Assembly: GCA_028280345.1 (NCBI GenBank)
Contig: JANQLY010000026.1
Location: 1-64,000 of the forward strand
DNA: 64,000 bases
Direction: 5' to 3'
From: Pseudomonadales bacterium
Lineage (GTDB): Bacteria; Pseudomonadota; Gammaproteobacteria; Pseudomonadales; UBA7239
Part shown: positions 12,988-40,323 of the stretch, piece by piece
How the letters are laid out: each line of letters starts with the position of its first letter
How positions within the stretch are numbered: position 1 is the stretch's first letter
Program-made: the position numbers and the translations under genes
The notes under the pieces: generated by a model
Databases searched by the model: none
Seen by the model: the letters and a program-made list of their open reading frames with translations, nothing else
What the model was told of the DNA's origin: nothing

Positions 12988-13821
12988 TTACCAATATTTG
13001 TAAAAATGATTGACCGGACCGGGGCCATGCCCCAACCCGAGTTTGTCGGCATAGATGATAGTACTGTGCAGGTAGTGGCGTGCCTCCGCCACCGCCTTTG
13101 GCAAATCACAGCCACGAGCCAGATTCGCCGCAATTGCCGCCGCCAGTGTACAACCGGTACCGTGAGTGTTTTCTGTAGCCACTTTTTCATAGTCGAAGCG
13201 CTTCACTTCATCATCACTAACCAGTACATCCGCCGACTGGCGGCCAGCCAGATGCCCACCTTTTAATAGCACTGCCCTGGCACCAGACATACGCAAACGT
13301 CGCGCCTGCTGCTCCATTTCATCCACGGATGTCGCAATCTCTGCACTTAGCAGCACTGCTGCCTCATGTAAGTTAGGCGTGACCAAAGCCGCTAGCGGCA
13401 ACAGGCGTTTTTTCAACGCCACTTCGGCCTCCCGGGCCAGCAACCGATCACCGCTCGTTGCCACCATCACCGGGTCGAGCACCACCGGAATATCCAGTGG
13501 CTGTAGTATATCTGCCACGGCATTAATAATGGCCTCGCCGTGCAACATACCGAGCTTAACTGCCGCTACGGGAAAATCATCAAGCACAGCCTGAATTTGC
13601 TGCACCACCAACTCTGGTTCAAGCGCCTCTATCGCGACAACCCCAAGGGTGTTCTGTGCCGTAATTGCTGTAATCGCAGAAGTACCATAAACACCGTTAG
13701 CGGCAAAAGCTTTGAGGTCAGCCTGTATCCCCGCACCGCCGCTGCTATCGGAACCGGCGATAGTTAATGCAACCGGGGTATGGCCCGCTGATGTTTCATG
13801 ATTGGACAAGAATCTCTCCAC
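12988..13821 (-). CDS. thiD: hydroxymethylpyrimidine/phosphomethylpyrimidine kinase
   Basis: Ribokinase-fold kinase making HMP diphosphate; about 273-277 residues. Signature residues are GSDSSGGAGIQADLKAF at the N-terminus and the anion hole GTGCTLAAAIAANLARG near the C-terminus. The start is uncertain: GTG at 13821 lies inside the P1 end of the riboswitch, while an in-frame TTG at 13809 is preceded by GGAGAG four bases upstream. I favour the latter for translation. No thiE domain is fused, so thiamine-phosphate synthase must be elsewhere. Confidence 0.94.
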   Translation of the reverse strand: MERFLSNHETSAGHTPVALTIAGSDSSGGAGIQADLKAFAANGVYGTSAITAITAQNTLGVVAIEALEPELVVQQIQAVLDDFPVAAVKLGMLHGEAIINAVADILQPLDIPVVLDPVMVATSGDRLLAREAEVALKKRLLPLAALVTPNLHEAAVLLSAEIATSVDEMEQQARRLRMSGARAVLLKGGHLAGRQSADVLVSDDEVKRFDYEKVATENTHGTGCTLAAAIAANLARGCDLPKAVAEARHYLHSTIIYADKLGLGHGPGPVNHFYKYW

Positions 13822-13911
13822 TCCCTACGCCGGCATTACCCGGTTCAGGTATGTACGGGTCTCTCTCAGCCTCGCCAAAATGCAGTGGACAGATAGTGGC
13901 GGACACCCCGG
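13820..13911 (-). ncRNA. TPP riboswitch (Thi box)
   Basis: On the minus strand the region reads GGGGTG..., then GGCTGAGAG, ACCCG, ACCTGAACCGGGTAATGCCG, and GCGTAGGGAG. These are the invariant pieces of the thiamine-pyrophosphate aptamer, including CUGAGA and the ACCUGA/GGUAAUGCC pocket. The 3' end of the aptamer runs directly into the thiD start and its ribosome-binding site, so ligand binding would most simply occlude translation initiation. It controls thiD-thiC. Confidence 0.95.
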
Positions 13912-13970
13912 TAGATAAAGATGACAAGTTTAGGTTGTGGTCAACAGGCTGTCTACGGTTTAATACGAAT

Positions 13971-36538: not shown

Positions 36539-37312
36539 ATGACCAACAACATCTGTGGCAATACGTTTGAAAATAAAGTAGCGCTTATTACCGGCGGTTC
36601 CCGCGGCCTCGGCGCAGATCTGTGTCAGTCCCTGCGTGCGCATGGTTGCAAGGTTATTGTCATGGCACGGGAGCCAGATCCGGAACAGTGCGATATTGCT
36701 CTGACCTGTGATGTGAGCGACGAGCATGCGGTGAACGAGGCGTTTGCCAAATTGCAACAGCAGGTAGAGCAGCTCGACTATGCGTTTATTAATGCCGGCG
36801 TATCGGGCTTCGCGCCCATCCTCGACATGGAAACGGAAGAATGGGATCGCGTTATCAATATCAACTTGCGCGGTGCATTCCTGTGTCTGCGTGAAACCGC
36901 CAGATTTATGAAAGCAGCCATTGAAAAAGACAAACAAAGTAGCGGTAGTATTATCACCTGCTGTTCACTTGCAAGCTTTGCTCCAGAGCCAAATATTGCC
37001 CACTACGGGGCTGCCAAAGCTGGTCTTGCAATGCTTACTAAAACCGCTGCGAAGGAGCTCGGCCAATACAATATTCGCGTTAATGGTATCGCGCCGGGAC
37101 TTACCAAAACCGATATTATCGCCGGCTCGGAACTGATTCCAGATTTCCACGAACGTGTCGCTAAACGCACACCACTCGGCCGCCTAGGCGAAAGCAACGA
37201 CATTACTAATACCTTGTTTGGCTTATTTACTATGGAGTGGGTAAGCGGCGAAATCCTCAAGGCCGACGGCGGCTTAAGCCTATTTACCGGTACCGATCCG
37301 ATGGAAACCTGA
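36539..37312 (+). CDS. short-chain dehydrogenase/reductase
   Basis: 257 residues, classical SDR. Cofactor motif TGGSRGLG (18-25), NAG at about 85-87, catalytic Ser143, Tyr156 and Lys160 (YGAAK), and the PGL loop after strand 6. The residue at the end of strand 2 (AREPD) suggests NADP preference, a weak inference. Likely works in sequence with the upstream alcohol dehydrogenase on the same substrate class. Confidence 0.92.
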   Translation: MTNNICGNTFENKVALITGGSRGLGADLCQSLRAHGCKVIVMAREPDPEQCDIALTCDVSDEHAVNEAFAKLQQQVEQLDYAFINAGVSGFAPILDMETEEWDRVININLRGAFLCLRETARFMKAAIEKDKQSSGSIITCCSLASFAPEPNIAHYGAAKAGLAMLTKTAAKELGQYNIRVNGIAPGLTKTDIIAGSELIPDFHERVAKRTPLGRLGESNDITNTLFGLFTMEWVSGEILKADGGLSLFTGTDPMET

Positions 37313-37333
37313 TCATTCATCACCCGGCTTGAC

Positions 37334-37362
37334 CTTGAAAAACGGGGCATTCAGCCCCATAT
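37334..37362 (+). promoter_or_regulatory. consensus sigma-32 promoter upstream of ssrA
   Basis: CTTGAAA at 37334-37340 and CCCCATAT at 37355-37362, spacer 14 bases: every position of the heat-shock consensus CTTGAAA-N(11-16)-CCCCATNT is met. The start would be near 37369, giving a precursor with about 95 extra bases ahead of the mature tmRNA. I see no convincing sigma-70 promoter at the usual distance from 37464. No open frame starts between it and ssrA. Confidence 0.75.
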
Positions 37363-37463
37363 CTTGATAGACTTCACCTTTACCGCAGTGGTCGTTCGCT
37401 GCGCAGTACACCGATAACCCGCCAATACCTGTTACATAGGGTAACGCGACTTAGCGGTTAAAT

Positions 37464-37820
37464 GGGGCCGATCTGGATTCGACGCCGGTACTGAAGTTAT
37501 TGATGCATGTCGTGATGTCAGCCAATCACGTTAATCCAAAGCTGAAACTTAATAGTTGCCAACGACGACAACTACGCTTTAGCAGCTTAAGTCTGCTAAC
37601 GGTTTTTAACAAGGTGCCAATACCGCGTTATTAACTGTCATATAGAATTGGCTCGCAGCAAAGTCTGTTCGGAGCGGCGCTGTTAAACTAAATTTCTGAA
37701 CTCGCGGTTAACGTCCTGGCCATTGGGCTGTTAATCGTTAAATTAATAGATGGTGCTAAGCATGTAGATTCTCTAATGGATGACTGACGGACGCGGGTTC
37801 AATTCCCGCCGGCTCCACCA
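37464..37820 (+). ncRNA. ssrA: transfer-messenger RNA (tmRNA)
   Basis: Ribosome-rescue RNA of 357 bases. The tRNA-like ends GGGGCCGATCTGGATTCGAC and GGGTTCAATTCCCGCCGGC pair as an acceptor/T arm, and CCA is encoded at the 3' end. The reading frame at 37558-37590 gives the tag ANDDNYALAA, one residue from the E. coli tag (ANDENYALAA). Pseudoknot stems were not traced in full. Upstream is a sigma-32 promoter; downstream come a terminator and two repeat units that duplicate its 3' end. Confidence 0.98.
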
Positions 37821-37821
37821 T

Positions 37822-37860
37822 AAAGCAAAAAGGCTACCCTCGCGGTGGCCTTTTTGCTTT
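37822..37860 (+). terminator. first terminator after ssrA
   Basis: AAAGCAAAAAGGCTACC (37822-37838) pairs with GGTGGCCTTTTTGCTTT (37844-37860) over 17 bp with one G-T pair and a five-base loop, T-rich 3' arm. It starts two bases after the tmRNA CCA. Confidence 0.93.
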
Positions 37861-37875
37861 ATCGATCAGTGTGAA

Positions 37876-37968
37876 TGAATGCAAATGCGCTGCGGGTGGC
37901 CAACAGGATGTTGGTCTGTCGCGGAGGGCAGGACGCCCGAGAGCGACCCAAGCCCGCCGGCTCCACCA
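37876..37968 (+). repeat. repeat unit copy 1, ending in a copy of the tmRNA 3' end
   Basis: 93 bases beginning TGAATGCAAATGCGCTGCGG. The last 16 bases (37953-37968) are identical to the 3' end of ssrA (37805-37820, CCCGCCGGCTCCACCA). Internally 37911-37951 folds as TTGG/CCAA, GTCGC/GCGAC and GGGC/GCCC stems separated by small internal loops. Copy 2 starts 148 bases further on. Confidence 0.92.
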
Positions 37969-37972
37969 ATAG

Positions 37973-38004
37973 AAAACCTCAGCTCGACAGGGCTGGGGTT
38001 TTTT
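37973..38004 (+). terminator. second terminator, between the two repeat copies
   Basis: AAAACCTCAGC (37973-37983) pairs with GCTGGGGTTTT (37992-38002), one G-T pair, eight-base loop, T6 tract. It starts five bases after the copied CCA, mirroring the layout of the first terminator although its sequence is different. Confidence 0.88.
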
Positions 38005-38023
38005 ATTGGTCGCGAAGCGAGAT

Positions 38024-38117
38024 TGAATGCAGATGCGCTGCGGGTGGCCAACGGGATATTGGTCTGTCGCGAAGGGCAGGACGCCCGAAAGCGACCCAAG
38101 TCCTGCCGGCTCCACTA
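38024..38117 (+). repeat. repeat unit copy 2, ending in a decayed tmRNA 3' end
   Basis: 94 bases, near-identical to copy 1 with one inserted base and scattered transitions. It ends CCTGCCGGCTCCACTA (38102-38117), two differences from the tmRNA end. Within the 41-base hairpin the differences from copy 1 fall in the internal loops (gga to gaa, gaga to gaaa), leaving the stems intact. It ends two bases before the stop codon of the convergent TPR-sulfotransferase gene. Confidence 0.9.
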
Positions 38118-38118
38118 T

Positions 38119-40323
38119 TTAGTAACCATGCTCCTCAATCAACTCCGTCAACGGCTCCATTAAATCCTGGATATGATCTTTATAGCGCTCCCACTTGGCC
38201 ACTGAGTTCTTATAGATCGGTTGCCGCACCTGGGTGATACTTGCGGTACGCACCAGTCTATCGGACTCATAAAACTCCAGACACTGCTCCTGCCAATCCA
38301 GACCAATAAATTCAATCAGCTCTTTTGACTTTTCTTCCTGATTTGCAACCAGCTGTTCATAGTCAGACACATAATAGTTAACCGGCAATACAGATTTCCA
38401 ATGTCGCATAATACGAAGATACTGACGCACTCGCTCCACCAGATGCTTTTCGTGACAGGCCCACGGAATCGAACCAAACTGTGTCATCCAGCACGATAGC
38501 GACACATCTCGAGGGTCGCGACGGCAGTGAATAATCTTTGCTTTTGGAAACAGTGTCAGTATCCACCCTACCAGGCTGTAATTATCCGGCATCTTGTCAA
38601 CGACCCGTGTCACGCCTTGTTCCTGTGCCTTATCTATTAGCAGCTGTAATCGCTCAAGATATTGCTCAGCCATCGATGCAATATTCTCAACAGATACTAT
38701 TGGCAAATATTGTTCACGCTGAAATTTACTTCCCTGGTTAAAGGCATGGAACGACTGATTAGCAAAAGATCGTTCACCAATGCCTAAAACGCTGGAGTGA
38801 CGTGCGATAATCTGTTCGGTTAGTGTAGTCCCGGAGCGCGGCATACCGACAATAAACACTGGCATTTCACTGTCGCTACCAATACCGGCATCCCTGATTG
38901 TCGCAAAATAGTTTGCATCGAAAGTTTCAATAATTTGCGAGATATGATTTTCCTGCGTTTTTACCTCGTAGTCCCAGTCTCTTTTGGATCGATATTCCCA
39001 CTGGTATTTATTTGCTTGCATCATATGGCTCGCAGCTTTCTCCGCATCCTTACAACCATCGTAATAATAAGCCAGCCCACTATGCAAACTCGATAACATA
39101 CCACTCTTGTCGATTCTTGAACTTGCTAACAATTCTTCCATCTTCTCAATATAGCTGGTGTCCAGCTTGCTCTTCAGCGTGGTTGCCAGTCCATTAAGTG
39201 CCGGTACAAAGTTCGCATTCTGCCCGAGCGCCTCATTATAAATCGCAACGGCCTGGTCTACATCTCCGGAAGACGACAGGATATGTCCCATTTTCGACAG
39301 CACGATCAAACGCTGCGGTTGTAGTGCTCTGACTTTTTCTAATAATTGCATGGCAAGATCTGCATCACCATCGTCCCAATACACATCACTGAGCAACAGC
39401 AGCAAATCTATGTTGTCTGAATTCTCCTCTAACAATGGCTCCAACATTTCGATCGCCGCATCAGTACCCAAGGTATCTGAAACCAGTTTAGCCAAACCAC
39501 ACTGAGCTTTTATATTACCTTCGTCTAACTGTACTGCCTTATCGAACCAGGTAGAGGCCTCTTGTCGATCACCCACCTCCTGCCAGACATCACCAATCGC
39601 AACACATAATTCGGATGATTCGCTATTAATATCATAGGCATCGGCATAGGCTTCCATCGCCTCGTCAAGCATCTCCAGTTGCACATAACAATCGCCAAGG
39701 TTCTTATACGCACTGATATCCGCTGGTGACAATTCAATCGCTTTTTTACAATGTTCAACTGCCCTATCCAGTTCACCAAAATGCTGTAACAGCCCACCCA
39801 GATTATTATGAGCCCGAGCCAGATCATGCGTTGTCAGCACTTTTTCATAAATAGCCACGGCTTTTTGCCACTGCCCTTTCTCTCGATGGGCGTCGGCTAC
39901 CGCGCAAAGGTAATTCATATTGTCAGGTACTTTATCGGTCAATGCGTGGAATAGCTTGAGTGCCTCGTCTGCTTGCTGATTCTCCAAATAAGCACATCCA
40001 AGGTTGTAACCGGCATCGTAATAATCTGGTTGTTCCTTGAGTGCTTTTTGTAAATGATAAATAGCTGAGTCGTATTCTTTATTACGCAACAAGGCAACAC
40101 CTAAATTGCCCAGATATTGGTAGTTTTTTTTGCTTTTTTGTAACGCTCGTTTTAGATATTTAATACTGGACTCATAATCTTCCAGAAAAAGATAAGCCAA
40201 GCCCAATAGATACAACGCATCTTCCGAGGTACGATCCTGTTTGTGCCAAACCTCTGCACGCTCAAGCACTTCCTGTGTCTTGCCCAAGCTGAGAAGATTT
40301 AATAATTCAGATTTATTTTGCAC
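38119..40323 (-). CDS. TPR-repeat sulfotransferase
   Basis: 734 residues, GTG start. Residues about 1-430 are tandem tetratricopeptide repeats (for example YQYLGNLGVALLRNKEYDSA, YYDAGYNLGCAYLENQQADEA). The C-terminal part (about 480-730) is a sulfotransferase domain with the PAPS 5'-phosphosulfate loop VGMPRSGTTLTEQ and the 3'-phosphate motif CRRDPRDVSLSCW. Bacterial proteins of this build are thought to sulfate peptides or glycans; the target here is unknown. Its 3' end abuts the ssrA repeat array. Confidence 0.9.
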   Translation of the reverse strand: MQNKSELLNLLSLGKTQEVLERAEVWHKQDRTSEDALYLLGLAYLFLEDYESSIKYLKRALQKSKKNYQYLGNLGVALLRNKEYDSAIYHLQKALKEQPDYYDAGYNLGCAYLENQQADEALKLFHALTDKVPDNMNYLCAVADAHREKGQWQKAVAIYEKVLTTHDLARAHNNLGGLLQHFGELDRAVEHCKKAIELSPADISAYKNLGDCYVQLEMLDEAMEAYADAYDINSESSELCVAIGDVWQEVGDRQEASTWFDKAVQLDEGNIKAQCGLAKLVSDTLGTDAAIEMLEPLLEENSDNIDLLLLLSDVYWDDGDADLAMQLLEKVRALQPQRLIVLSKMGHILSSSGDVDQAVAIYNEALGQNANFVPALNGLATTLKSKLDTSYIEKMEELLASSRIDKSGMLSSLHSGLAYYYDGCKDAEKAASHMMQANKYQWEYRSKRDWDYEVKTQENHISQIIETFDANYFATIRDAGIGSDSEMPVFIVGMPRSGTTLTEQIIARHSSVLGIGERSFANQSFHAFNQGSKFQREQYLPIVSVENIASMAEQYLERLQLLIDKAQEQGVTRVVDKMPDNYSLVGWILTLFPKAKIIHCRRDPRDVSLSCWMTQFGSIPWACHEKHLVERVRQYLRIMRHWKSVLPVNYYVSDYEQLVANQEEKSKELIEFIGLDWQEQCLEFYESDRLVRTASITQVRQPIYKNSVAKWERYKDHIQDLMEPLTELIEEHGY

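Follow-up and report, generated by a model that had tools for sequence, protein, structure and literature searches.

Why does the gene of tmRNA, the RNA of ribosome rescue, carry in a Pseudomonadales genome two further copies of its own 3' end directly behind it, and what would RNA made from these copies do? The locus lies in a window of 64,000 nucleotides (the whole stretch of DNA analyzed here). The last 16 bases of the tmRNA recur exactly at the end of a first unit and with two changes at the end of a second (Table 1), confirming the observation from which an earlier note on this DNA had started. The end copies sit within a 110-nt direct repeat (84% identity, 148 nt apart), which is far beyond chance, and the core of unit 1 differs from its copy by seven substitutions and one inserted base. 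The different terminators that had been read after the tmRNA and after unit 1 also held up, as both are strong hairpins by folding and are unlike in sequence. A pattern scan for terminators called neither of them, probably because the T-run lies within the extended stem; by folding both are clear. Two features are additions to the earlier description: a pair of hairpins with GGA loops in each unit, and the missing terminator of unit 2. Specifically, unit 1 lies between two terminators, and unit 2, with no terminator of its own, abuts a convergent TPR-sulfotransferase gene that ends at 38119.

Table 1 Features of the ssrA locus and its two downstream units (window coordinates).
Feature	Position	Strand	Detail	Basis
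ssrA (tmRNA)	37464..37820	+	tag ANDDNYALAA	ARAGORN and Rfam
Terminator 1	37821..37861	+	18-bp stem; -27.2 kcal/mol, z -7.1	folding
Unit 1 conserved core	37877..37968	+		direct-repeat comparison
Two-hairpin GGA module of unit 1	37897..37949	+	74 bits	model R1
Unit 1 hairpin 1	37898..37916	+	GGCCAACAGGATGTTGGTC; loop GGA at 37906-37908	folding
Unit 1 hairpin 2	37918..37947	+	outer GTCGC/GCGAC, inner GGGCAGGACGCCC; loop GGA at 37931-37933	
Exact copy of the last 16 nt of tmRNA	37953..37968	+	source 37805-37820	
Terminator 2	37968..38007	+	18-bp stem; -25.1 kcal/mol, z -7.9	folding
Two-hairpin GGA module of unit 2	38045..38097	+	67 bits	model R1
Copy of the tmRNA 3' end, end of unit 2	38102..38117	+	two changes (14/16 identical)	

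A search of the genome found the whole unit at ssrA only, and plasmid and phage DNA searched with the unit gave no match. Rfam matches in the window were limited to the tmRNA and a TPP riboswitch, and the weak Rfam matches over the units were mostly to terminator stems. The riboswitch aptamer (13805-13920, minus strand) is unrelated to the units. A promoter scan of 37300-38200, which misses the promoter of ssrA too, found no sigma-70-like site. We also considered the unit as a tRNA-like acceptor stem and rejected this candidate: in the fold, some of the copied end pairs with the unit's 5' portion, yet folding of the units barely beats that of shuffled sequences (z -0.9 and -1.8).

The two hairpins of each unit resemble CsrA sites (ACAGGAUGU and GGGCAGGACGCCC). 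Hairpin 1 of unit 1 matches the SELEX consensus of CsrA, RUACARGGAUGU (PMC6692469), at ACAGGAUGU. Its counterpart in unit 2 has changed to CCAACGGGATATTGG, with a closing pair and the A before GGA lost, and the core of hairpin 2 (GGGCAGGACGCCC) is the same in both units; unit 2 appears to be in partial decay. Four csrA genes are present in the genome (G000 C7:178576, C3:104727, C9:61905 and C8:43740), as compared with one or two in most genomes of the class listing.

Among known systems, the units are most similar to RrA, RrB, and RrF of E. coli, tRNA-linked repeats (TLRs) that lie between dual rrn terminators and bind CsrA in vitro (PMC8144298). RrB binds with a Kd of ~100 nM, and changing three GGAs left no shift in the range tested (PMC8144298). 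TLRs of this type are defined by read-through transcription and by binding of CsrA (and Hfq). RrB and unit 1 share the same order of parts in sense orientation, namely a stable-RNA 3' end, a first terminator, two GGA hairpins, a copy of the 3' end, and a second terminator. RrB also holds GGCGGGCAGGACGCCCGCC, the inner 13 nt of which (GGGCAGGACGCCC) are those of hairpin 2 in both window units. The two systems differ in that RrA, RrB, and RrF are found at 5S and the window units at ssrA, two in tandem, and in that the first hairpin of RrB (CAAATCCGCCGGGAGCGGATTTG) is of another kind than hairpin 1 of unit 1. Homology to RrB was not found over the whole unit, and our covariance model of the hairpin pair (R1, see below) had no match to RrB at E<1 (no match in L228). 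Since the 13-nt hairpin core alone is common to both, we file the units as probably working like RrB and not as members of its sequence family.

With TLRs in general the units share their number and position (two, downstream) and a 3' end that repeats that of the upstream RNA gene (16 nt identical in unit 1, 14 of 16 in unit 2), although this gene is ssrA and not a tRNA or rRNA gene. TLR loci have one to five units, with an end copy of 18-19 nt in E. coli. The TLRs of E. coli tRNA operons, including rtT/tyrT (Rudd 1999, as cited in PMC8144298), likewise have tandem units that end in a copy of the upstream RNA 3' end (18-19 nt vs. 16 nt here). The tyrT region lacks the CsrA-type hairpin pair of the window units, and the 19 tRNA-linked E. 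coli TLRs have low predicted CsrA scores (PMC8144298). Hence the idea of an ssrA counterpart to the E. coli repeats stands, but not the choice of rtT/tyrT as the closest of them: RrA, RrB, and RrF are closer, given that RrB has both the hairpin pair and the identical 13 nt.

Two other groups of RNAs invite comparison. The CsrB, RsmX, RsmY, and RsmZ sRNAs also present GGA in hairpin loops, and a role as CsrA decoy is proposed for them as for the units. Unlike these sRNAs, the units have two GGA hairpins each and are embedded after ssrA, with no promoter of their own found by the scan that is also blind to that of ssrA. No Rfam match to the CsrB/RsmX/Y/Z family reached the gathering score (rsmX, 14.5 bits vs. 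a cut-off of 56). The TwoAYGGAY motif (RF01731), a predicted CsrA sponge (PMC4333381), is like the module in having two hairpins with GGA loops, and AUGGAU loops occur in some of the module's relatives. At the gathering threshold, TwoAYGGAY had no Rfam match in the window or in 20 related loci.

To follow the hairpin pair (hereafter the module) across genomes, R1 was built from scattered blastn matches to it at the level of the order. R1 found eight places in this genome. Besides the two ssrA units, these are a pair of abutting copies within a duplicated 5' end of tRNA-Leu(CAG), one copy downstream of tRNA-Met and its terminator, and three copies with no tRNA nearby. For the earlier note, units scattered with no relation to tRNA ends would have counted against its reading. 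The whole unit was found at ssrA alone in this genome, and the module otherwise at tRNA-Leu and tRNA-Met as well as at places without a tRNA. Within the order, R1 matched 69 of 391 genomes and 46 of 142 genera. Across the order, the module lay in the trailers of ssrA and tRNA-Ala but was commonest in tRNA-Leu 5' ends duplicated in tandem, and it was almost always oriented in sense. Of 113 order-wide loci, 36 were ≤700 bp from a co-oriented tRNA or tmRNA gene and three from an anti-oriented one, when ~2% of loci would be expected near a tRNA by our own estimate.

In the tRNA-Leu arrays, the module interrupts the D loop following GGTAGAC, and the intact gene is preceded by as many as five units, each 125-142 nt long. 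Five loci (L069:1033-1488, L070:1125-1742, L071, L073, and L075) have two to five tandem copies of the tRNA-Leu leader and 5' part, with a GGA module in each D loop and an intact tRNA-Leu directly downstream. At tRNA-Ala(GGC) in one genome (L078), the units combine the module with a degenerate tRNA 3'-end copy and a duplicate of the terminator, which is the plan seen at ssrA in the window. In other families the module is dispersed (28, 35, and 117 matches in three genomes), and some copies lie inside long open frames. We observed the ~51-nt module, mostly in sense, within open frames of L042, L045, L051, L059, L232, L259, and L264, which by eye we take for conserved protein genes, among them those for type I restriction, queuine tRNA-ribosyltransferase, topoisomerase, and aminoacyl-tRNA synthetases.

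Conservation beyond this genome, without which the earlier note would have given up its proposal, was found by a pattern scan of an 84,980-species collection. A copy of the tmRNA end was carried 99-159 nt past the tmRNA by 59 species, and R1 matched the ssrA units in 13 of these 59. Terminators flank the unit on both sides in many gammaproteobacterial ssrA repeats. The nearest relatives showed no unit wherever the trailer of ssrA could be read. In 10 of the 13 species the copied tmRNA end is split by the module (GATTCC^module^CGCCNCCTCCACCA), which indicates that the end copy came first and that the module was inserted afterwards. Two species of one genus (L004 and L152) have the module after ssrA and no end copy.

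In four more of the species (L171, L182, L190, and L203) the ssrA units have other GGA hairpins, and many ssrA repeats of other families have no GGA hairpin and a different cargo. The Halieaceae-type repeats (L170, L195, L197, L198, L217, and L222) have a common cargo, GCGGGTGGCCGAGCG..AGGTCTGTCGA.., and no GGA hairpin pair. In four metagenome-assembled genomes labelled Actinobacteria and one labelled 'bacterium' (L187, L207, L208, and L209; L189), a short tmRNA-end copy after ssrA comes with the common sequence GACGGACTGA..GGAGTCYGCG..CTCTGCAGCGA; these are apparently another repeat family.

The hairpins are conserved as RNA structure. In a MAFFT alignment of 18 ssrA-linked modules, chosen by R1 in a way that favours pairing somewhat, pairing is seen in 94.4% of cells and both partners have changed in 10 of 14 stem pairs, which 0 of 500 shuffles matched; GGA is kept in both loops of all 18. 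Covariation was seen for 13 of the 14 pairs in 132 order-wide matches, in an alignment fitted to R1. The GGA hairpins of ssrA repeats lie on the sense strand at 32:2 in module-bearing units and at 29:8 in units not matched by R1, and within long open reading frames the module is in sense at 29:6. Taken together, the covarying stems, the kept GGA, and the sense bias point to selection on the transcript. The constraint is uneven, as hairpin 2 is decaying after ssrA in L152 when compared with L004 of the same genus.

The reading that we prefer, with a probability of roughly 55%, is that of an ssrA-linked TLR which carries a two-hairpin CsrA-type module and would be the ssrA counterpart of E. coli RrA, RrB, and RrF, made by terminator read-through and titrating CsrA. 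A fraction of ssrA transcripts would read past terminator 1 to terminator 2 or further, and the copied tmRNA end may cause the RNA end to be processed or protected as in tmRNA. The short RNA so released would expose two GGA loops that could bind a CsrA dimer, and CsrA would be titrated in proportion to ssrA transcription. Binding of CsrA by unit RNA is what one would predict by analogy with RrB. We consider CsrA the best candidate partner of the GGA hairpins because of the likeness to RrB, the binding of CsrA by RrB, and the co-occurrence with csrA. Among good-quality genomes of the class, csrA was found in 72 of 73 with the module and in 208 of 241 without it (Fisher p 0.002, phylogeny being ignored), and in families f169 and f145, represented by draft genomes, the module was present and csrA was not found. 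With two GGA sites, the RNA would need to be abundant to be more than a weak decoy. As to origin, the units may have arisen by duplication of the ssrA 3' end, the module having been inserted into such a copy in many relatives.

It is possible, though we think it rather unlikely, that the module spreads selfishly as a dispersed palindromic element, inserting into tRNA- and tmRNA-end copies, tRNA-Leu D loops, and, in frame, proteins, and has no regulatory role at ssrA. Elements of this kind are familiar from Rickettsia, where short palindromic sequences are dispersed and lie in frame within coding genes. The module is like them as a short dispersed palindrome that is also present in coding genes; it is unlike them in its conserved GGA loops, its sense bias, and its link to tRNA-Leu and the tmRNA end. 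As one 2.4 Mb genome has 117 copies, and copies are also found in coding sequences, ssrA may be just one landing place among others. Its insertion points are clean (GATTCC^CGCC in the tmRNA-end copy, GGTAGAC^ in tRNA-Leu), as a selfish element would have it. Decay, as observed for unit 2 and for L152, fits with this as well and means that function should not be assumed at every site. Selfish spread by itself does not account for stems that covary while the GGA loops stay, for the sense bias beside tRNAs, in long open reading frames, and in ssrA units, or for the inner hairpin that E. coli RrB shares without the layout of the module. The two readings are not exclusive, since selfish spread and CsrA binding can coexist, and a mobile module kept where it is useful as a CsrA decoy would be compatible with both.

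Less probable again is that the tmRNA-end copies are what matters, whether they provide backup sites for termination and 3' processing or act as decoys for tRNA-end enzymes, with the GGA hairpins as incidental cargo. The ssrA repeats of L170, L195, L198, L173, and L188 agree with this, consisting of a copied end and a second terminator around cargo without GGA hairpins. This reading leaves the covariation with conserved GGA loops unexplained, however, and the same module is found at tRNA-Leu 5' ends, where the 3' end is not copied. The scars of serial site-specific integration at an ssrA att site that the earlier note had suggested are very improbable, even though ssrA is a common integration site and the sequence just after it in L287, L295, and L308 resembles the starts of integrase genes by eye, considering that the tested ssrA neighbours (SDR and TPR-sulfotransferase genes) include no integrase or element remnant, that the 148-nt units are short, have structure, and come with terminators as well as a conserved RNA module, and that the same plan recurs at tRNA-Ala, with a 5'-end version at tRNA-Leu.

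With regard to the wider pattern, CsrA-type hairpin pairs beside stable RNA genes (ssrA, tRNA-Ala, and especially tRNA-Leu) suggest an arrangement that recurs among gammaproteobacteria. It would tie the global regulator CsrA to how fast stable RNA or tmRNA is made, with direct tests possible in many species. What tRNA-linked repeats do has been an open question ever since they were described in 1978, and the three rrn-linked ones of E. coli are alone in having been tied to CsrA (PMC8144298). We tentatively extend our ssrA reading to a mobile two-hairpin CsrA-binding module that would have spread in gammaproteobacteria and come to lie in coding sequences, in the leaders of tRNA-Leu, and in the trailers of tmRNA and tRNAs. 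The titration of CsrA would then follow stable-RNA synthesis in many species; in this broad form the proposal is doubtful. The comparison also points to a dispersed palindromic element that appears constrained as RNA and not as DNA alone. This wider pattern, most of all the arrays at tRNA-Leu and the modules inside coding genes, is the more surprising part, and we found no report of it in the literature covered. That search included few subscription papers, so that its finding no paper on ssrA-linked repeats or tRNA-Leu arrays is weak evidence of novelty.

We also note three loci (L014, L015, and L016) with repeats near tRNA-Arg whose four-hairpin layout is close to that of E. coli RrB (ACAAATTGCCAGGAGCAATTTG ... 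GGGCAGGACGCCC). In L016, the 3' end of tRNA-Arg is repeated at the end of the unit.
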